Assembly (NCBI GenBank): GCA_946699565.1
Contig: CAMPDW010000003.1
Span: forward strand, 86,473 to 150,472
Reading direction: 5' to 3'
From: an uncultured Commensalibacter sp.
GTDB lineage: Bacteria > Pseudomonadota > Alphaproteobacteria > Acetobacterales > Acetobacteraceae
Length of the DNA: 64,000 bases
Shown here piece after piece: positions 52,786 to 64,000 of the stretch (its first letter is position 1; each line of letters opens with the position of its first letter). A program made the position numbers and the translations under genes. The notes beneath the pieces were generated by a model, which saw only the letters and a list, made by a program, of their open reading frames with translations, searched no databases and was not told where the DNA came from.

Positions 52786-53772
52786 TTAATTTAAAAATCC
52801 ATCTTTTTTCAATATCTCCATTACGGTCTGTATACGATTATTATAAAGATGATCTTTTAATGTTCTCGCTTGAGCTTTTTTAGCTGTTTCAAGAAGTAAC
52901 TCTGGATTATTTAAATATTTATTCAATTGCTGTTGAAAATCAAAACGTGTCGAAAAAACAGGCACTTCATCTTTTTCATAAAAATCATGTATAGCATAAT
53001 TTTCTTCATGATAAAGCTGCATTGCTCCAGCTGCTGCAGCCTCAAAAGTTCTTGGACCTGGATTAGAAGGCATAATAAAATACCGTTTATTTTCAAAATG
53101 CAAACTACGTCCCAAGTTAAGCACTATTTTAGACCGTTGATATAATTCAATTAACTGATCTTTTTCAATTCTTGCATCTGAAAAACCAATTCCAAATTCA
53201 CCCCATCCAGGACCTATAATTTTTACTCTTAAATCTGCCAGTGCAGGTTTAATACTCCGAATGACATCCTTACGGCTTCCAAAAGCTACACCGCAAAACA
53301 TGACATCAACAGTTTTTTCTATCGTTTCATCAATTGGACGATAATGCAATTTCTCACACGCTGCCAATGGAAGAAAATGAACATGAGGACGATTATAAAA
53401 ATTTGTTCCCCATCGATCACATGAAAAAATAATATCAAAATCATCTATAATACGATAATTGGCATCCTGTTCATATGGATCTTCTGTAGCCCAAAAGACA
53501 GTAACTGCACCTATCTCTTTTGCTTTTTTACATACTTCACTAAAATATGTACTTTCTGGCAAATAAGAACCAAGTGCAAAAACAATTTTTGGTTTTATAT
53601 AATCAATTGCAGCAGCAGCTCCTGCTATATTTGTTGATATAACATTTCCCTCACCAAAAATACTTTCCCATCCAGACATAACCGCTTCTCTAACTTGAGC
53701 ATTTGCTTGTGATTCATAACGTCCACCACTACAAACCATTACTTTATCATTTACAATTTTTTTATAATTCAT
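52786..53772 (-). CDS. CgeB-like glycosyltransferase (GT1-type fold)
   Basis: The 328-residue protein has a Rossmann-like first half (VMVCSGGRYESQANAQVREA, PKIVFALGSYLPES, TVFWATEDPYEQDANYRIID, DIIFSCDRWGTNFY) and a second half with the nucleotide-sugar-binding region of CgeB/Glyco_trans_1_2 proteins (VDVMFCGVAFGSRKDVIRSI, IVLNLGRS, PGPRTFEAAAAGAMQLYHEE). The E of RTFEAAAAGA corresponds to the conserved glutamate of GT-B enzymes. It is soluble. The first half aligns by eye with the N-terminal part of the 1119-residue protein encoded at 58908-62267 (FWAxEDP, FLPLAA, HYRxxxET). It is the last gene of a three-gene glycosyltransferase cluster. Confidence 0.78.
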   Translation of the reverse strand: MNYKKIVNDKVMVCSGGRYESQANAQVREAVMSGWESIFGEGNVISTNIAGAAAAIDYIKPKIVFALGSYLPESTYFSEVCKKAKEIGAVTVFWATEDPYEQDANYRIIDDFDIIFSCDRWGTNFYNRPHVHFLPLAACEKLHYRPIDETIEKTVDVMFCGVAFGSRKDVIRSIKPALADLRVKIIGPGWGEFGIGFSDARIEKDQLIELYQRSKIVLNLGRSLHFENKRYFIMPSNPGPRTFEAAAAGAMQLYHEENYAIHDFYEKDEVPVFSTRFDFQQQLNKYLNNPELLLETAKKAQARTLKDHLYNNRIQTVMEILKKDGFLN

Positions 53773-53825: not shown

Positions 53826-56800
53826 TTAGTCTAATACTTTTGATAAGATTAGCTTTATTTGCTCTCTAAATTGCTTTTCATTACAATCTTCTTCAATTCG
53901 TTTAAAGGCATTTTGTCGTATATAATGCCATAAATCTTTATTTTCATATAATTTTATTATTTGAGATGCAAAGAATTCAGGGTTGTCAATCGGAGCTGAA
54001 AGAATATCTTGATCATTCTTCCAACCTAATTGGTTTACTAATATTTCTGAAGCAACTACAGGAATACCATATGAAGCCGCTTCATGAACTTTATAAGGAA
54101 TACCCCCTGCAAATCTTGTAGGCGCGATATAAATACGATGTTTATTATATATTTCTGACAAATCGGAAACTATACCCAAAAATTTTACATTCGGATATTT
54201 AGATAGTTCATACATATCTACGGATGCAACATTAATATATCCTGCAATTGAAAATGTAAAATCCTGCCCTAACTTTTCAACTAAAATAGGCAATATATTT
54301 TTAAGAAACCATTCTAAACTATCATAATTAGGGCATGTATTATCATGTAATGCACCAACAAATAGAATATTTTTCCGTTCCAGCCAATTATCAGGGCTAT
54401 CTTTTATTTGAAGATTATGACCCAAAACATTAACATTATCAAATCCTGCTTTTTTGATATATTCTGCATCAATGGTATTAACAGCAACAATTTCCTGACA
54501 ATGTCTTGCACACGATAATTCTTCTTCTAACGCTTCATCAAAAGTTTTCTTAGGTTTAATTCCTAATATTTTTTCTTGTTGCTGAGTTCTCACCGTTGCC
54601 ACAACCTCCGTATCAAGGATAATGGATTTTTGAGGTAAATAGCGTGTTGCTTCACCCATAATCGGTAATATTCTATTAAGATTATGAGTTCTACCAATCC
54701 AGATCAAATCATAAAACCCAGCTCGTTCTTTAAAAAATTCACGTAAATTTTCAATAGTATGATTGAATAATATTTCCACAGTATCGGGTAAACTTAAATA
54801 AATTTGATAAAGATGTGGATAATAATAATTAATCGGATAAACAGTTACTTCATAACCCATTTTATCCATTTGAGTGATAATATCATTAGACCGGATATAA
54901 CCTGATCCCAAAAATTTTAAAGGTATCCGATCTTCAATAAAAAGTATTCTTTTATTGTTTTTTCTGCGTTGTCTTGCAATTAAAACATTATCTAAATGAC
55001 ATGGAGATTGAAATCTCAAAAAATCTGAATGTTCTTTTGTAAAATTATAATGATTACGCTGCATTAATCCACTTGATACAATAGGATTACTTGAGGCATA
55101 TTCTAAATGTTCAACAACTGCATTTGGATCATATACAACTCGATAACCTGCTTTTATTATCTTTACACATAAATCTGTATCTTCGAAATAAGCAGGATAA
55201 TAAATTGGTGTAAATCCATTAACTTCTTGTAAAATATCAGTTTTTACAGCTAACATCGAAGCAGAACAATAATCTACATCACGGACAAAATTTGCTTCAG
55301 GGATTAAGGGATCCTCTCCTCTTAAATAACCTGAAGTTGTTCCATCGCGCCAAATAATTTGGCCTGCTTCTTGTAAGTAACCATTAGGATGAATAATTTT
55401 TCCACCCACCGCACCAATCGTATCTGATGAAACAAGACGTTGACACAAGGCATTAATTGCATTAGGAAATAGATTGATATCATTATTTAAAAAGATTGTT
55501 ATTGGTGCATCAACCTTCTCAATTAATTCATTACAAGCTTTACCATAACCAAAATTGAAAGGAAAATGAGTAACATATGCTCCAGTTAAACAACTTTGAA
55601 TATATTGCCCATCATCTGTAGAATGATTATCCCCTAATAAAAGCTGAATCTTTCCATTAAAATTTCCACGTAATGAAGCTAATGCCATTAAGGTTACTGA
55701 TAGATGGTTATACATTAACATAATTACACAAATATCAGCTTGACCTTCATAAGAAAAATCTAACTTATTATGAGCAACTAAAGGTATAGCAATTTTAGAC
55801 TTGCGCTGAAAATATTTTCTACTGTCATTCGTTTCTTTACTCAAACGATAATGAGAATATTCAGGTAATTTATTTAGCCATTCTTCAATCTTATTATCAA
55901 ATACATAATGAGCATATACATCCCTAAAAATTTTATTTTCAATTTCTTCTTGTACATTGCCAGAATAATAATATTGTCGTAAATCAATATCTTTATTGGG
56001 TGAACGGAATTCAAATGTACCATGATAAACAAAATGGTCATAGCCATTTCTAAAATTTTCAGAATTTTCAATAGTTTGACGTATATCAGGATAAGTTTCT
56101 AAATAATATTGCTCATCAAACCATTTGGAAGGATTAAACTTTTTAGGTGTATCATTAACACAATAATGATGTAATGCACATTGATATTCTCCATTTTCAA
56201 TTTCTTGATGAACTCCAGGATATTTTTCAATATACCATAATGTATCAAAATATAATGAGACATCTGAATTTTTATCAGTATCTGGTAAAGAAATTAAATA
56301 ATTCTGATATGGAGTTTCTGTTTTTTCTATCAGACCTCTTTGATAACATTGTTGTTGATAGATTAAAGGATCAAAAAACAAAGAACCTCTGCGTTTAAGC
56401 ATATCCCCAATTTTTAAATAATGATCATAGGCATTAACATATTGATCATTATTTAAAATATCATAAACAAAATCTTGATTATTTTTTAAATAATAATATG
56501 TGGAAAATAACCAATGAGGATCATTCGTTAAATATCCGCTTAAACAATAATGTTCAAATCCAGACTTAAAAGCTCCACGATCAATATTCTTTTTTAATTG
56601 AGGATATTGTCTTAAATACCATTCTTCATCGAAATAGGGATTTGGAGAATGTCCCAAAACAGAACCTATTTGCTCGTAAAAGACTTTTGCATCATTGATT
56701 CCACAATTAGACATTTTTTCTTTTGTATCAGGATATCTTTTTAAATACCAATCTTCATCAAATTTTGCCCATAATGCATGACTGGAATCTTTATTAGAGG

Positions 56801-58832
56801 TAATTTTTTCCTCTTCAGAAAATTCATTTTGTATAAAATTCAATGGTTTATGATTTGCAGATGCAATCAGCCAACCAATATAAACATTTGGAAAAATATT
56901 ATCAACCAAATCTTTTTGTACAGCTGGATTTGAGGCATATTGTAACAAATTGACTTCAGCACTTGGATTCCATAGTAATTTTATACCTTCATAGATAAAA
57001 TGTTCATATCCATTGCGATATTTATCAAAAGCTTTTTGTTCATCTAATTGATTACGATATTTTGAAAGATAGTATTTTTCATCAAACCAAGCTGTTGGAT
57101 TATAATCAAACGCATTTTCATTAGCTAAATAATGATGAAGATAGTTAATATATTTACCATCATTAATTGCACGAGTTACTTCCGGATAAGCTTGTGCATA
57201 CCATTTTGGATCAAAATACCACGACACCCTTAAAGTTTTTTCAAAATTTATTAAAAATTTAAGATAATGGCAATAAGGCCCCAGATTTTCTTGAATGACT
57301 TGATGATATTGCCCTAAAAAGAAATTGCTATCAAAAAATAAACTTCCACTTATTCCCTCAACACTACCGGTTTTTAAAAAATGATCATAACCATTAACAA
57401 AACCATTTTGTTCTAAATTTTCTTTAGTTAAATGTGGGTTGGCTTTCTTATAATAATCTTCAGAAAATAACCAATGAGGATCATTAAATAAATATCCTTC
57501 TTTACAATAATGTTCAAATCCCGAGTTAAACAAATGACGATTAATCATTATTTGAACATTAGGATATTTATTTAAATACCATTTTTCATCAAAATAAGGA
57601 TTGGGTGAATTACCCTCAAAACAACCATATGAATGATAATATTCTTCAGCTGTTGTAATATCTAAAGTCTGCATCTTAGAAATAACAGAAGGATAATTTT
57701 GGATATACCATTGTTCGTCGAATTTTTTCCAAAATGGAAACTTACTATCCTCTAATTCGACATTCTCAAGTGATGATCCTTCTATATTTATCTCCTCTAA
57801 AAGAGGAACCTCAACATTCTTAATGACCGTATTTACTTCGTCTAAACCATTTAAATCAAAATTAACTATCCCTAATTTGATTAAATTGTCTTTAAGATTT
57901 TGTAATTTCAATAATAAATCAGGATTTTTTTTAGCTTCCCAATATTCAAAAATATTTACATATTCTTTACGAACATAAACCAAGTCATATTCTTCTTGAG
58001 TAAACTCATTATAATTAAATTTTTCGTTTGGTTTTCTTTTTTCATCACAACCACAAATAATAAAATGATCATATCCATTACGAAACACACCCTGACCATC
58101 TTTAGAAATCGTAGTTATTAAATCATGATAACATCCAAGATAATATCGCTCCGAAAAGTCGATTAATGGAGAAAACAATGTAGGTGTAGCGTTAACTAAG
58201 TAATGATGTAAAGTATTTAGGAATTTTGGATTAGATGAAAGGGATGAGGATTTATAGTAAGTTTCAAAATACCATTGTGGATCAAAAAACCAAGATATCT
58301 TTAAAAGATCACAATCTCGTAAAGCTGATTTAATTAAATATTGAAAAGGTCCAACATCAAGAATTTCTTCATAATTATCTTTTTGACTAAGATATAAAAA
58401 AGGATTAAAAAAATAACTTCCTGTTAAAAATTCTTTATCTCCTTTTTGCAAATAATGATCATAACCATTAATATATGGTTTTCCCTCTCCTATTAGATCC
58501 ATAATTTGAGGATTAAATTTTATATAATTTTCTTCTGAAAACAACCAATGAGGCGAATGATCTTTAAAGCCTATCTTAGTATAATGATCAAACCCTGAAA
58601 TATATTCACCATCTTGAATAAGTTTTTTGATATTAGGATACTTATTTAGGTACCATATTTCATCAAAATAGGGATTAGGTGAATTACCTATTTTACATCC
58701 TGTACCAAGATGATAGGCATAAAAATCCCCTTGATATATATCCTGAATCAATACAGTAAAATTTTTATATCTACGGCTATACCATTCAAGATCAAAAATT
58801 TTCCATTTAGGCTCCTTTTGAATAGTATCCAT
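53826..58832 (-). CDS. Giant modular glycosyltransferase: FDxxWY repeats + GT2 + GT4
   Basis: This 1668-residue protein has three parts. Residues about 10-980 are repeats of a unit of about 40 residues built on F(D/S)xxWYLxxYPxV...G...G(F/Y)xHYxxxG, arranged as three super-repeats of seven units (see the repeat entry). About 1028-1247 is a GT2 domain: ICVIMLMYNHLSVTLMALAS, FLNNDINLFPNA as the DXD-equivalent, and YFEDTDLCVKIIKAGYRVVY. About 1290-1668 is a GT4-type GT-B domain: RILFIEDRIPLKFLGSGYIR, NILFVGALHDNTCPN, and PYKVHEAASYGIPVVASEIL with the conserved E. There is no signal peptide or membrane helix, so it is probably cytoplasmic. It likely adds two kinds of sugar to a surface glycan or glycoprotein; the acceptor is unknown. 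Confidence 0.85.
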   Translation of the reverse strand: MDTIQKEPKWKIFDLEWYSRRYKNFTVLIQDIYQGDFYAYHLGTGCKIGNSPNPYFDEIWYLNKYPNIKKLIQDGEYISGFDHYTKIGFKDHSPHWLFSEENYIKFNPQIMDLIGEGKPYINGYDHYLQKGDKEFLTGSYFFNPFLYLSQKDNYEEILDVGPFQYLIKSALRDCDLLKISWFFDPQWYFETYYKSSSLSSNPKFLNTLHHYLVNATPTLFSPLIDFSERYYLGCYHDLITTISKDGQGVFRNGYDHFIICGCDEKRKPNEKFNYNEFTQEEYDLVYVRKEYVNIFEYWEAKKNPDLLLKLQNLKDNLIKLGIVNFDLNGLDEVNTVIKNVEVPLLEEINIEGSSLENVELEDSKFPFWKKFDEQWYIQNYPSVISKMQTLDITTAEEYYHSYGCFEGNSPNPYFDEKWYLNKYPNVQIMINRHLFNSGFEHYCKEGYLFNDPHWLFSEDYYKKANPHLTKENLEQNGFVNGYDHFLKTGSVEGISGSLFFDSNFFLGQYHQVIQENLGPYCHYLKFLINFEKTLRVSWYFDPKWYAQAYPEVTRAINDGKYINYLHHYLANENAFDYNPTAWFDEKYYLSKYRNQLDEQKAFDKYRNGYEHFIYEGIKLLWNPSAEVNLLQYASNPAVQKDLVDNIFPNVYIGWLIASANHKPLNFIQNEFSEEEKITSNKDSSHALWAKFDEDWYLKRYPDTKEKMSNCGINDAKVFYEQIGSVLGHSPNPYFDEEWYLRQYPQLKKNIDRGAFKSGFEHYCLSGYLTNDPHWLFSTYYYLKNNQDFVYDILNNDQYVNAYDHYLKIGDMLKRRGSLFFDPLIYQQQCYQRGLIEKTETPYQNYLISLPDTDKNSDVSLYFDTLWYIEKYPGVHQEIENGEYQCALHHYCVNDTPKKFNPSKWFDEQYYLETYPDIRQTIENSENFRNGYDHFVYHGTFEFRSPNKDIDLRQYYYSGNVQEEIENKIFRDVYAHYVFDNKIEEWLNKLPEYSHYRLSKETNDSRKYFQRKSKIAIPLVAHNKLDFSYEGQADICVIMLMYNHLSVTLMALASLRGNFNGKIQLLLGDNHSTDDGQYIQSCLTGAYVTHFPFNFGYGKACNELIEKVDAPITIFLNNDINLFPNAINALCQRLVSSDTIGAVGGKIIHPNGYLQEAGQIIWRDGTTSGYLRGEDPLIPEANFVRDVDYCSASMLAVKTDILQEVNGFTPIYYPAYFEDTDLCVKIIKAGYRVVYDPNAVVEHLEYASSNPIVSSGLMQRNHYNFTKEHSDFLRFQSPCHLDNVLIARQRRKNNKRILFIEDRIPLKFLGSGYIRSNDIITQMDKMGYEVTVYPINYYYPHLYQIYLSLPDTVEILFNHTIENLREFFKERAGFYDLIWIGRTHNLNRILPIMGEATRYLPQKSIILDTEVVATVRTQQQEKILGIKPKKTFDEALEEELSCARHCQEIVAVNTIDAEYIKKAGFDNVNVLGHNLQIKDSPDNWLERKNILFVGALHDNTCPNYDSLEWFLKNILPILVEKLGQDFTFSIAGYINVASVDMYELSKYPNVKFLGIVSDLSEIYNKHRIYIAPTRFAGGIPYKVHEAASYGIPVVASEILVNQLGWKNDQDILSAPIDNPEFFASQIIKLYENKDLWHYIRQNAFKRIEEDCNEKQFREQIKLILSKVLD
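55885..58800 (-). repeat. Protein-level hierarchical repeat: 3 blocks of 7 FDxxWY units
   Basis: Anchor motifs recur in the same order in each block: unit b PNPYFDExWYLxxYP at residues about 51, 410 and 728; unit c HWLFSxxxY; unit d GS(Y/L)FF(N/D); unit e S(W/L)(F/Y)FDxxWY with a LHHY tail; unit f (D/W)F(S/D)E(R/K/Q)YYL...RNGY(D/E)HF; and a more divergent unit g. The spacing between blocks is about 359 and 318 residues. Same-letter units match one another across blocks better than neighbouring units do, so a seven-unit block probably arose first and was then triplicated. DNA identity has clearly decayed, so the event is old. Confidence 0.85.
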
Positions 58833-58907: not shown

Positions 58908-61900
58908 TTAATATTTCAAAAATTTTTTTTCAAAAAAAGTATTAAATTTATTTAATATATTATCATCACAATTTTCATCAATTATTTCGATTATCTTATT
59001 ATCAATAAAATTAATAGAAATATTAATTGATACTGTTTTATATTCATTTCCTATAACATTAATTAAAAAAACGCGATAATTTCCATTAACTTTAAAATTA
59101 TAACCCTTATTCAAATCTAACAAAACGTAAAAACCATTATTCAATGGAACATTTTGAAAGACAGAAACAGTTTCATGACGAATAAACCTTGATGTTGCTA
59201 CATAAAAACATTCTTTTAAATTTTCAGAAACAAAAGCTATATATATTCTTCCTGCCATACTGATACTTCTGTTAAAAGCCCAACCAGAAATTTTTAATAA
59301 GTTCGCTTCTACAACCTTATCCGAATTTTTATTCACATTTGCTGAAAAAGTTTCAATACAATATTCTAACTGCCCAGCTGTTTTTGGGTATATATTGTTT
59401 TCGGAAATCTGATTTAATTTAATTCCTCGCATAATACCGTCTTTTTCGGTTATACGTAAAAAATCATCTAAAATAATTTGATTATTATGTGCTTCATTAA
59501 ATACTTTAATAATTTTTCCACCCGTAACCATTATTTCATAATTAGAAAGCTGAAACGCTGCAACACCATTAATAATATTTATTAATCCAATTCTAAAACG
59601 CCCTTCACACCATTTTCCACGCAGTGCAGATGTACATGAAAAACCATTTCTTAAAGGTGCATTGGAAAAATTAGATGCAACATCTTCTCTGTTTTCACGA
59701 TCACATTTCAAAAAAATTGTTAAATCGCTACTTTGATTAATCAGAACAGTATAAAGCGTTCCGGCATTAGATATATCCGAAAGAATAAACCATCCTCTAA
59801 TATGAAATTCACTAGCTTCTTTAAATTTTTCATCATCATCCACATTTAGAACATGATAACAAATATCATCAATATAATAATTTGCACCTTGAATATATGC
59901 CCAATCCTCAATAGGTTGGGGTAATTCAATATGAATATTACTTAATGTAGGAGCATCAAGAATATGACGTGGAGGAGCTTGTTCTTTCCAGCTTGAATGT
60001 GGAATGAAATTCAAACGTCCAATATCCCATTTTAAATTACTATCACCAAAGGTACAGGGTTGTAGAAGATCTTTATATATCTTCAATAGCTTATTAGAAT
60101 ATTCTTTTGAATTTACCCACATATCAGGCATAATATTTTCTATGAGCAACTTACGCAATTTTTCATCTGATCGAATTAATTCCAGACGATCAATAACTAA
60201 ATTAACTTCGCCAATAGGAACTTTGAACCCATTCAAACCTTCTTGCACTCGGTCATTTAACCCACCAACATCAGTGACAATTGGAATTAAACCATTTTGC
60301 CATACTTCCGATAAAGAAATACAATATGTTTCAGGCCATATAGACAAAATCAAAGCAACATCTGCAACTTGCAATGCTGTTGCTTCACCCAATGCATAAG
60401 ATCCGTGAATAATTATGTTTTCTTGATTTAAGTTTTTTAAAACAGATTCATAATCAGGCTGCATATAGCCAAAAATATGAAATTCATATAACTTTGGATT
60501 GGCTGATTGTAAAATAGATAAAATAGTATCCGCACCTTTTGATCGGATAAAATTACCTACCGTAGCAACTTTTAACTTTTTACCATTTAATGGCGTATAT
60601 TTTTTAGGTTGAGTAGGAATAGCTGTATCTGGTAATGGTATACCTAAAACATGATTTTTCTTATGTTTTACAATAGGATAGACATATTCAATAACGTCAT
60701 AGGAATGTTGTGTTCCATATAAACACACATCTACGGATTTCATCACATTACCAATAAATGCACGACGTGTTTGCTGAACCCCAAATTCAAGCTTATCCGA
60801 AATTTTTAAACAAATATCACAAGTACCAACATCTTTATTTTCTTCAATTCGACAATATCGTTGTTCATAATTTAACAAATTATAATGCGAACAAACAGCC
60901 AAAAAATCATGAAAAGAATAAACAACTCCAACACCACAAGCTTTAGCAATGATAGGTAAAGAAAGTGTATGATGTCCAAGATGTTGAATATGTACAATGT
61001 CAAATTTATATTGGGTAATTACATTTGAAAAAACCGTTTCTTCACCTGCATCATTCATGGAATCTAACCATCCTACATCAGGCATATCAAAACGTTCTAA
61101 CTCTTGACCATTTATATCTGTTAAAAAACAAGCCCCTCTTCGACGTAACCAATAATAAAATTCAACCTCTTTCATTAAAGCTAAAGAAATAATTTGTTGA
61201 TAAACTTCAATACCACCCCAAACCTGTTCATTAATAGTTGAATGCGTAACAAACAAAACTTTTATTTTCTTTTTATATGTAGAAACAGCAGTCTTTATTT
61301 GCTCTTTTCTCTTACGTGTAAAATCAGCATGCGTAATATCTTCAATTTTTTTTAGGCGATTTTGATATAAATGAGATTGTAATACAGATTGCTGAGCTGC
61401 GTCAGCCATCTTTTTTCTTAAACCCTTTTTATAGAAAATTACTTCAATTTGTTTGATAATTTCTTCTGTATTATGCGCAATTGCTATACCACTCACTTCT
61501 TCAACAAATTTTTCATCCATTTCAGAAGGAAGTTCAACAATTTGAGCCGCACCTGATAAACCCAACTCATAAAAACGTGGTCCTGGCGCCGTTGCTTGTC
61601 CTATATCACCATGACTTGCATAATTGCGAAACATAGTTAAAGTAATTTTACTTGCATTCGCGAAATCAACAAATGATTCAATATTTACAGGTCTGTGAAT
61701 AACTCTTTCACTTAAATCCGCAGGTAAAGGAGGTAAATATTCATTACATGGACAAATCAATTTATAACGAGCATTTGGAAAAGCTATAATCACTCGTCGC
61801 AAAACATCAACACGATTGGGCCACATGGTTCCGGCAAAACAAATATCGTAATCTAAATTTTCTGTTTCTTTAACTCGACGATAATGAATTTGATCACTAG

Positions 61901-62267
61901 CTGCCAAAGGCAAATAATAAGCTTCAATTTGATAAGATTTGATGCAATCAGGATCATTTGAAAATACATAATCAAAAATCGTTGTAACTTGAATATTAAA
62001 ATCCAACATAAATGGATCTTCAAAAGCCCAAAATATCATTGTTTTAAAGCATGGACGCAGCCTTTTCATCAACTCATAATCAGTACGCTGACCATCAATA
62101 CAAATCAACACATCATGTTCACCACTTGCCGCAACAAGTAAAATATCCATATTGTCAACAACAACAACGTTTTCCTCCCCCCACAATTTTTTAGCCGCCC
62201 AAAAAATTGCCAAGGTTAAGTATGAATTAGAATTATGAGTATAATTTGTATTATAAATGACTGCCAT
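58908..62267 (-). CDS. Modular glycosyltransferase: CgeB-like + GT4 + twin C-terminal domains
   Basis: The 1119-residue protein begins with a CgeB-like region (about 1-325: IFWAFEDPFMLDFNIQ, YYLPLAASDQIHYRRVKET, DICFAGTMWPNRVDVLRR, APGPRFYELGLSGAAQIVEL). A GT4 GT-B domain follows at about 333-740 (KVLFVTHSTINEQVWGGIEV, VKVATVGNF-type strand LKVATVGNFIRSKGADTI, IHGSYALGEATALQVADVAL, ISLSEVWQNGLIPIVTDVGG). The C-terminal third (about 805-1085) contains two similar beta-rich segments described under findings. No signal peptide or membrane segment. It is the first gene of the cluster in transcription order, 75 nt from the giant glycosyltransferase. Sugars and acceptor are unknown. Confidence 0.82.
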   Translation of the reverse strand: MAVIYNTNYTHNSNSYLTLAIFWAAKKLWGEENVVVVDNMDILLVAASGEHDVLICIDGQRTDYELMKRLRPCFKTMIFWAFEDPFMLDFNIQVTTIFDYVFSNDPDCIKSYQIEAYYLPLAASDQIHYRRVKETENLDYDICFAGTMWPNRVDVLRRVIIAFPNARYKLICPCNEYLPPLPADLSERVIHRPVNIESFVDFANASKITLTMFRNYASHGDIGQATAPGPRFYELGLSGAAQIVELPSEMDEKFVEEVSGIAIAHNTEEIIKQIEVIFYKKGLRKKMADAAQQSVLQSHLYQNRLKKIEDITHADFTRKRKEQIKTAVSTYKKKIKVLFVTHSTINEQVWGGIEVYQQIISLALMKEVEFYYWLRRRGACFLTDINGQELERFDMPDVGWLDSMNDAGEETVFSNVITQYKFDIVHIQHLGHHTLSLPIIAKACGVGVVYSFHDFLAVCSHYNLLNYEQRYCRIEENKDVGTCDICLKISDKLEFGVQQTRRAFIGNVMKSVDVCLYGTQHSYDVIEYVYPIVKHKKNHVLGIPLPDTAIPTQPKKYTPLNGKKLKVATVGNFIRSKGADTILSILQSANPKLYEFHIFGYMQPDYESVLKNLNQENIIIHGSYALGEATALQVADVALILSIWPETYCISLSEVWQNGLIPIVTDVGGLNDRVQEGLNGFKVPIGEVNLVIDRLELIRSDEKLRKLLIENIMPDMWVNSKEYSNKLLKIYKDLLQPCTFGDSNLKWDIGRLNFIPHSSWKEQAPPRHILDAPTLSNIHIELPQPIEDWAYIQGANYYIDDICYHVLNVDDDEKFKEASEFHIRGWFILSDISNAGTLYTVLINQSSDLTIFLKCDRENREDVASNFSNAPLRNGFSCTSALRGKWCEGRFRIGLINIINGVAAFQLSNYEIMVTGGKIIKVFNEAHNNQIILDDFLRITEKDGIMRGIKLNQISENNIYPKTAGQLEYCIETFSANVNKNSDKVVEANLLKISGWAFNRSISMAGRIYIAFVSENLKECFYVATSRFIRHETVSVFQNVPLNNGFYVLLDLNKGYNFKVNGNYRVFLINVIGNEYKTVSINISINFIDNKIIEIIDENCDDNILNKFNTFFEKKFLKY

Positions 62268-62514: not shown

Positions 62515-64000
62515 TTATTCTACTTCTGTATCATTTTCATTGCGTCGACGTATAGCAGCCCCTAGGATATCCCCTAAAGATGCTCCACTATCTGAAGAGC
62601 CATAATCAGAAATAGCTTGCTTATCTTCTTCAACTTCACGACCTTTAATCGTTAAGGTTAAACGACGTGCATTTTTATCGATTGATACAACTTTAGCATC
62701 AACGCGATCGCCAACATTAAAGCGTTCTGGCCGTTGTTCCGCCTTATCACGAGAAAGTTCAGTACGACGAATAAAGCCTGTTAAAATATCATTTACACTA
62801 ACATCTACCCCATTAGGTTGAATACCAGTAATCGTACATGTAACAATGCTACCTTTGTTAACTTTAGCAAGCGCATCAGCAACTGAATCTTCACTTAACT
62901 GCTTAATTCCTAAAGAAATACGCTCTTTCTCAACATCAACATCGATGACTTTTGCCTTAACAACATCACCTTTTTTGTAATGTGTAATAGCAACCTCACC
63001 TGGTTCATCCCAAGAAAGGTCAGACATATGGACCATACCATCAATATCAGATGATAATCCAATAAATAGACCAAATTCTGTAATATTGCGGATTTCGCCT
63101 TCAATTTCAGAACCAACTTGATGTGTATCTGCAAATTGTTGCCAAGGATTAGGTTGAACCTGCTTCAAGCCAAGAGAAATTCGACGTTTTGAACTGTCCA
63201 CATCCAATACAACGATTTCAACTTCTTGAGATGTTGAAACAATTTTACCTGGATGCACATTTTTCTTTGTCCAAGACATTTCTGAAATATGAACAAGACC
63301 TTCTACCCCTGGTTCAAGTTCAACAAATGCACCGTAATCCGTGATATTTGTCACTCGACCTGTAAAGCGTGAGCCAACTGGATATTTTGTTGCAACATTT
63401 TCCCATGGATCTGCCTCAAGTTGCTTCATACCCAATGAAATACGATGTGTTTCAGGATTAAAGCGAATAACCTGAACACGTACAGGTTGACCAATCTGTA
63501 GTGCTTCCGCAGGATGATTAACACGTTTCCAAGCAATATCGGTTACATGTAATAATCCATCAACACCACCTAAATCAACAAATGCACCATAATCAGTAAT
63601 GTTTTTAACAACACCATCCAAGATCATGCCTTCTTTAAGACCTTGAATAAGTTCACTACGTTGTTCAGCACGCGTTTCTTCAAGAACAGCACGACGAGAA
63701 ACTACGATATTTCCACGTGCACGATCCATTTTTAAAATTTGAAAAGGTTGTGCAACACCAATCATAGGATTGATATCGCGAATTGGTCGAATATCAACCT
63801 GCGACCCAGGTAAAAAAGCCATGGCTCCACCTAAATCAACAGTAAACCCGCCTTTAACGCGACCAAAAATGGTTCCATTAATGCGTTGACTATTCTCAAA
63901 TGCTTTTTCAAGAGCAGACCACGCTTCTTCACGACGTGCCTTTTCACGCGAAAGCAAAATTGAACCGTCACGATCCTCGTAACGTTCCACATAAAGTTCA
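62515..64000 (-). CDS. rpsA: 30S ribosomal protein S1 (5' end outside the window)
   Basis: S1 binds mRNA and brings it to the 30S subunit for initiation. The visible part (about 495 codons) runs from ELYVERYEDRDGSILLSREK, in the linker after the first S1 domain, to the C-terminus. Five S1 RNA-binding repeats can be seen, beginning GTIFGRVKGGFTVDLGGAMA, GMILDGVVKNITDYGAFVDL, GSRFTGRVTNITDYGAFVEL, GSEIEGEIRNITEFGLFIGL and GSIVTCTITGIQPNGVDVSV. Repeats three to five are the best conserved. The reading frame stays open to the window edge; the GTG at 63990 is an internal Val codon and not the start. The acidic tail (RRRNENDTEVE) is typical of alphaproteobacterial S1. Confidence 0.97.
   Translation of the reverse strand, partial: ELYVERYEDRDGSILLSREKARREEAWSALEKAFENSQRINGTIFGRVKGGFTVDLGGAMAFLPGSQVDIRPIRDINPMIGVAQPFQILKMDRARGNIVVSRRAVLEETRAEQRSELIQGLKEGMILDGVVKNITDYGAFVDLGGVDGLLHVTDIAWKRVNHPAEALQIGQPVRVQVIRFNPETHRISLGMKQLEADPWENVATKYPVGSRFTGRVTNITDYGAFVELEPGVEGLVHISEMSWTKKNVHPGKIVSTSQEVEIVVLDVDSSKRRISLGLKQVQPNPWQQFADTHQVGSEIEGEIRNITEFGLFIGLSSDIDGMVHMSDLSWDEPGEVAITHYKKGDVVKAKVIDVDVEKERISLGIKQLSEDSVADALAKVNKGSIVTCTITGIQPNGVDVSVNDILTGFIRRTELSRDKAEQRPERFNVGDRVDAKVVSIDKNARRLTLTIKGREVEEDKQAISDYGSSDSGASLGDILGAAIRRRNENDTEVE

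Follow-up and report, generated by a model that had tools for sequence, protein, structure and literature searches.

A glycosyltransferase of Commensalibacter with three copies of a seven-unit N-terminal repeat domain, and its single-block orthologues in acetic acid bacteria

What, if anything, does a glycosyltransferase of the insect-gut bacterium Commensalibacter gain from carrying the same array of repeats three times over in front of its catalytic domains? The question arises in the window, a stretch of 64,000 nucleotides from the genome of an uncultured member of the genus (1.92 Mb in 29 contigs), where a single open reading frame on the minus strand (53826..58832) encodes a protein of 1668 residues in which three repeat blocks, each of seven units of about 43 residues, are followed by a GT2 and then a GT4 domain. 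All window features given here lie on that strand. Block 1 (57930..58808, residues 9-301, the end of its unit g being approximate), block 2 (56865..57731, residues 368-656) and block 3 (55899..56771, residues 688-978) are separated by linker 1 (57732..57929), which is variable in length and weakly constrained, and by the short linker 2 (56772..56864), both with approximate boundaries. The GT2 domain (55092..55730, residues 1035-1247) is matched by Pfam Glycos_transf_2 over residues 1035-1151 (38.8 bits against a cut-off of 23.3), weaker GT2-related models extending to residue 1247 at scores below their own cut-offs, and the C-terminal half of the GT4 domain (53940..54374, residues 1487-1631) is matched by Glyco_trans_1_4 at 75.1 bits against a cut-off of 27. 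In an alignment of 79 rows the NND at 1116-1118 of the GT2 domain is nearly invariant and D1220 invariant, as are R1573 and K1581 of the GT4 domain, with E1584 nearly so; solved relatives exist for the GT2 half, for example TagF. Assignment to TIGR03087 (stp1) was rejected, its score of 57.3 bits falling far under the curated cut-off of 316.65.

The repeat hierarchy is evident from self-comparison of the protein. The blocks are 39-41% identical to one another over aligned columns, and their local BLOSUM62 scores of 531, 490 and 652 compare with means of 46-48 and maxima of 81, 91 and 76 for the respective pairs over 300 shuffles each. Units a to g begin at residues 13, 56, 98, 141, 183, 226 and 272 in block 1, at 371, 414, 456, 499, 540, 583 and 627 in block 2, and at 691, 734, 776, 819, 862, 905 and 949 in block 3, so that their order is the same throughout and their spacing almost constant. 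In 37 of the 42 comparisons between blocks a unit scores highest with its counterpart of the same letter; four of the five exceptions are comparisons of the short unit g, and the fifth is that of unit e of block 3 (b3e) against block 1. The first-pass annotation, which had proposed a three-by-seven hierarchy with equivalent units matching best across blocks, is borne out on both counts. It had also read the frame and its length correctly, leaving the strand unstated, and had counted about 21 units over some 980 residues: 21 unit positions can indeed be placed between residues 9 and 978, but linkers interrupt the array, the GT2 domain starts only at 1035, and no more than 15 of the 21 units score strongly because units d and g are divergent. 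Together F, W, Y and H account for 23.7% of block residues, compared with 13.8% in the glycosyltransferase part and a mean of 12.6% and maximum of 18.9% in the 36 other open reading frames of the window; this richness would suit a binding role, but may reflect nothing more than the packed core of a repeat. At the DNA level similarity between blocks is patchy, with 67-73% identity over 166-256 bases in the main segments, and a recent duplication was rejected on that ground.

The number of blocks is fixed within the genus. In whole-genome searches the full block matches number three, all in one frame, in each of the nine Commensalibacter genomes, the named three-block relatives being Commensalibacter papalotli, C. 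intestini, C. communis and an uncultured Commensalibacter. Outside the genus the picture is different: a block match with E no higher than 1e-20 was obtained in 198 of the 397 family genomes drawn, nine of them Commensalibacter, and a second block within one frame was seen in none of the other 189. In the 78 of these that at first gave two or more matches, and that were re-searched with all candidates scored, the matches lie in separate frames of at most 1179 residues, save for the pieces of a broken copy in one genome (G645); in the 111 with one match, for which five candidates per genome were scored, a missed second block is unlikely, if not excluded. Larger frames with partial arrays do occur in the family, such as one of 1656 residues in G035, and in six genomes (G356, G493, G564, G593, G635 and G666) the second block match is broken by a stop codon, as if decaying.

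A comparison of loci, restricted to the best 80 of 225 relatives, gives the same contrast, with 15-16 recognised units in all 4 Commensalibacter loci and 3-6, equivalent to one block, in all 76 others; the four genus loci come from four of the nine genomes above, and the two counts therefore overlap. The single-block orthologues, found at the rpsA locus in Gluconobacter, Asaia, Bombella, Saccharibacter and some Acetobacter, share with the window gene its locus, its neighbours, the seven-unit domain and the GT2+GT4 half, and among those best 80 of 225 relatives they are about 41-44% identical to it, but they are only about 1000 residues long, with one block in place of three. Where these relatives have one seven-unit block before GT2 and GT4 the window protein has three, and it is otherwise collinear with them over its last ~985 residues, block 3 occupying the position of their single block. 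The gene family and the unit are of known kinds; what is new is a differentiated seven-unit domain whose number is fixed at three in a single genus, and a literature search, with most subscription journals outside it, found no paper on this protein.

A fixed number bears directly on the idea that the array sets the length of a glycan chain by its number of blocks, a role that the first-pass annotation had entertained and proposed to recognise by a variable block count in orthologues. The count is three in 9/9 genus genomes and a second in-frame block appears in 0/189 of the other family genomes with a match, the reverse of that expectation. A large hierarchical array ahead of catalytic domains is what such a ruler might look like, but because block number is fixed, relatives make do with single-block orthologues and linkers that differ in length (61-177 residues for linker 1) make a poor ruler, we consider it extremely unlikely as the main reading. 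The other roles entertained in the first-pass annotation, binding of a repetitive acceptor and scaffolding of the two catalytic domains, may still apply.

The locus itself is old. Upstream of the gene lies a 1119-residue glycosyltransferase (58908..62267) and downstream a 328-residue one (52786..53772; DUF3880 and Glyco_trans_1_2 in Pfam), both syntenic, and the flank is formed by rpsA, encoding ribosomal protein S1 (62515..63990), whose match begins at model position 79, so that its true start is probably past the window edge and the gene cut there. For the C-terminal 385 residues of the upstream enzyme (58908-60065) a search of Pfam up to E = 1 gave no match. The order rpsA, large glycosyltransferase, repeat gene, 328-residue glycosyltransferase holds in all 4 Commensalibacter loci and the corresponding order in 35 of the 76 others; both neighbours are present in 42 of the 76 (in 4 of them in reverse order) and neither in 34, some of which are on short contigs, these counts again being limited to the best 80 of 225 relatives. 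Since Commensalibacter and its relatives have this locus order in common, the extra blocks most probably originated within a gene that is old and orthologous.

How the copies arose was addressed with two trees. The first, built from 30 single blocks and 24 from the genus, gives every block position a clade of its own with 99-100% support, and the same clades recur at 99-100% in the second, which joined 21 genus blocks to 23 single ones and to 14 retrieved as second gene copies, one of the latter (L216) turning out to be the copy at the syntenic locus. With one clade per block position, the triplication is older than the radiation of the genus, and there has been no homogenisation among the copies. 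We infer that one block was the ancestral state and that the copies were made by tandem duplication. It might instead be supposed that blocks 1 and 2 were fused from the paralogous second gene that many relatives possess, given that 78 other family genomes have two or more block matches in separate places and Commensalibacter has full blocks in one gene only; such a fusion is very unlikely, as in the second tree the second-copy blocks group with no block clade of the genus, and a topology uniting every genus block is not rejected (p-AU 0.43). That common origin is also not proven: in the best tree the 21 genus blocks fail to form one clade, and the side on which they lie, itself weakly supported, also holds three Acetobacter loci.

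Purifying selection acts on each of the three copies, and most residues conserved in the family are still present in all of them. With 9 of the 76 loci left out, 67 single blocks define 51 columns that are conserved at 95% or more, and of the cells in these columns block 1 retains 93%, block 2 94% and block 3 97%. The copies may nevertheless not be equivalent, because two of the conserved positions, 941 and 943 by the numbering of block 3, are missing from block 2 alone in each of the 8 species. For the pair L011/L012, dN/dS is about 0.18 in block 1, 0.07 in block 2 and 0.04 in block 3, with 0.04 in the glycosyltransferase part and 0.46 in linker 1, and when the window gene is compared with L006 the three blocks give values of about 0.18, 0.15 and 0.28 at high dS; the gradient across blocks is not uniform, since the latter pair does not favour block 3, and such ratios are of limited use, dS being high in all pairs but L006/L007, which has very few changes. 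These values must be set against a neutral account, in which the extra blocks stem from chance duplication in a small-genome lineage and serve a redundant role in stability or folding with no new function. Between-species identity falls from 61% in block 3 to 58% in block 2 and 51% in block 1, the most divergent copy, as such an account would have it, and the extra blocks have no known phenotype. Against this, two additional blocks of ~300 residues have been kept in 9/9 genus genomes, with dN/dS well under 1 and 93-94% of conserved cells retained, and we regard the neutral account as improbable.

Clues to function come from the company that the unit keeps elsewhere. Its type is F-D-x-x-W-Y ... 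H-Y-x-x-x-G, and in searches up to E = 5 neither the blocks nor the small two-unit proteins match any Pfam or NCBIfam model, barring very weak hits to DUF5988 below cut-off. No convincing match was obtained among solved structures in the PDB (best E 0.17 and 0.27), nor any Pfam match to a TPR or Sel1-type repeat family up to E 1 for the whole protein and E 5 for the blocks, and a crude Chou-Fasman reading of the unit gave too mixed a signal to be of use. The block profile nonetheless finds matches at E 0.001 in 29 of 299 phylum genomes drawn, Commensalibacter included, where the loci contain 1 to 12 units at a usual spacing of ~38 residues. The longest of these arrays, 12 units at a ~38-residue period, is on a glycan-synthesis enzyme, the RgpF-like protein L152, which belongs to the same unit family but has RgpF in place of GT2+GT4 and in which no three-by-seven register was seen; long arrays as such are thus not unique to the Commensalibacter enzyme. 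A plasmid survey with a two-unit protein as query matched 126 records, and the 60 rows listed, sampled across these and including near-identical ones, carry 19 glycosyltransferase names, 11 GH99-like, 5 methyltransferase, 1 LPS biosynthesis, 3 calcium-binding, 1 Hint, 1 DUF4347 and 1 DUF616, the remaining 18 being hypothetical (8) or without annotation (10). This agrees with the view in the first-pass annotation that the unit occurs on assorted glycosyltransferases and is triplicated here. Escherichia coli and Enterobacter plasmids carry the unit on genes annotated as methyltransferase and glycosyltransferase. Closer to home, two adjacent small genes in the window's own genome (L005, contig C11, 1024-1761 and 2102-2413) encode proteins of 245 and 103 residues with two copies of the same unit at their start and no enzyme domain found in Pfam or NCBIfam, the former having a polar, lysine-rich tail after the units, and in 7 of the 8 other genus genomes unit matches are likewise present in short frames (179-200 residues).

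Because the unit is found on enzymes of different chemistry and on a few secreted-type proteins, its role would be binding rather than catalysis, with a glycan as the simplest common ligand. Our preferred reading, held tentatively, is that the protein is the Commensalibacter orthologue of what we here name the "rpsA-linked repeat glycosyltransferase of acetic acid bacteria", a GT2+GT4 enzyme, and that its N-terminal domain, having gone from one copy to three, may supply multivalent binding modules for a partner. The seven-unit domain would have been triplicated before the genus radiated; each block would be an independently folded binding module; all three would hold one and the same partner, the surface glycan as it grows or its acceptor being the likeliest; and three such modules on flexible tethers would confer higher avidity or processivity on the two catalytic domains. 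Linker lengths (61-177 residues for linker 1 and 26-33 for linker 2 over 8 species, with the boundaries used for the conservation count) vary, and for that reason the sequences suggest three separate tethered modules rather than one continuous solenoid of 980 residues. A broader proposition, which we think rather unlikely, is that the unit represents a glycan-binding repeat, widespread but as yet unnamed, of enzymes for bacterial surface polysaccharides and of some secreted-type proteins, the trivalent Commensalibacter version making its glycosyltransferase processive on a repetitive acceptor.

Ranking just under multivalent acceptor binding, and nearly as good, is docking to partner enzymes, by which the blocks would bind the syntenic glycosyltransferases or a membrane complex and three copies would collect three partners. 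The three glycosyltransferase genes are a conserved trio, on one strand in 46/46 loci that hold both neighbours (among the best 80 of 225 relatives), the unit is found on many different glycan enzymes, and differentiated units a to g kept in register would suit a protein interface. On the other hand, the two neighbouring enzymes themselves contain no repeat units, and 5 of the 60 plasmid rows listed are calcium-binding, Hint-domain or DUF4347 proteins, for which such partners are not expected. Docking is possible, though on the unlikely side.

Two further known systems bear comparison with this enzyme. In O-GlcNAc transferase a TPR superhelix before the catalytic domains helps to hold the substrate; the Commensalibacter enzyme likewise has a repeat array before its catalytic domains, but Pfam gives it no TPR match. 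In the same bacterial family PolE, from acetic acid bacteria, is described as a glycosyltransferase-like gene for surface polysaccharide that lies downstream of dTDP-rhamnose genes (PMC5553594); the homologues of the window protein in three Acetobacter genomes do not. Identity with PolE, which would place the gene beside rmlD (rfbBACD/polABCD), was rejected: in 3/3 Acetobacter genomes all matches to the window protein are on a different contig from the over-cut-off rmlD.

Common as it is on polysaccharide enzymes, the unit finds no convincing counterpart in Pfam, NCBIfam or the PDB, and a syntenic pair of orthologues with one block and three offers a clean natural comparison for the role of the domain. 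If the block binds glycan, it would be a new binding repeat, with a bearing on how insect-gut symbionts build their surface glycans; and if the trivalent form does confer processivity, Commensalibacter would provide a natural experiment on how non-catalytic modules control polymer synthesis.
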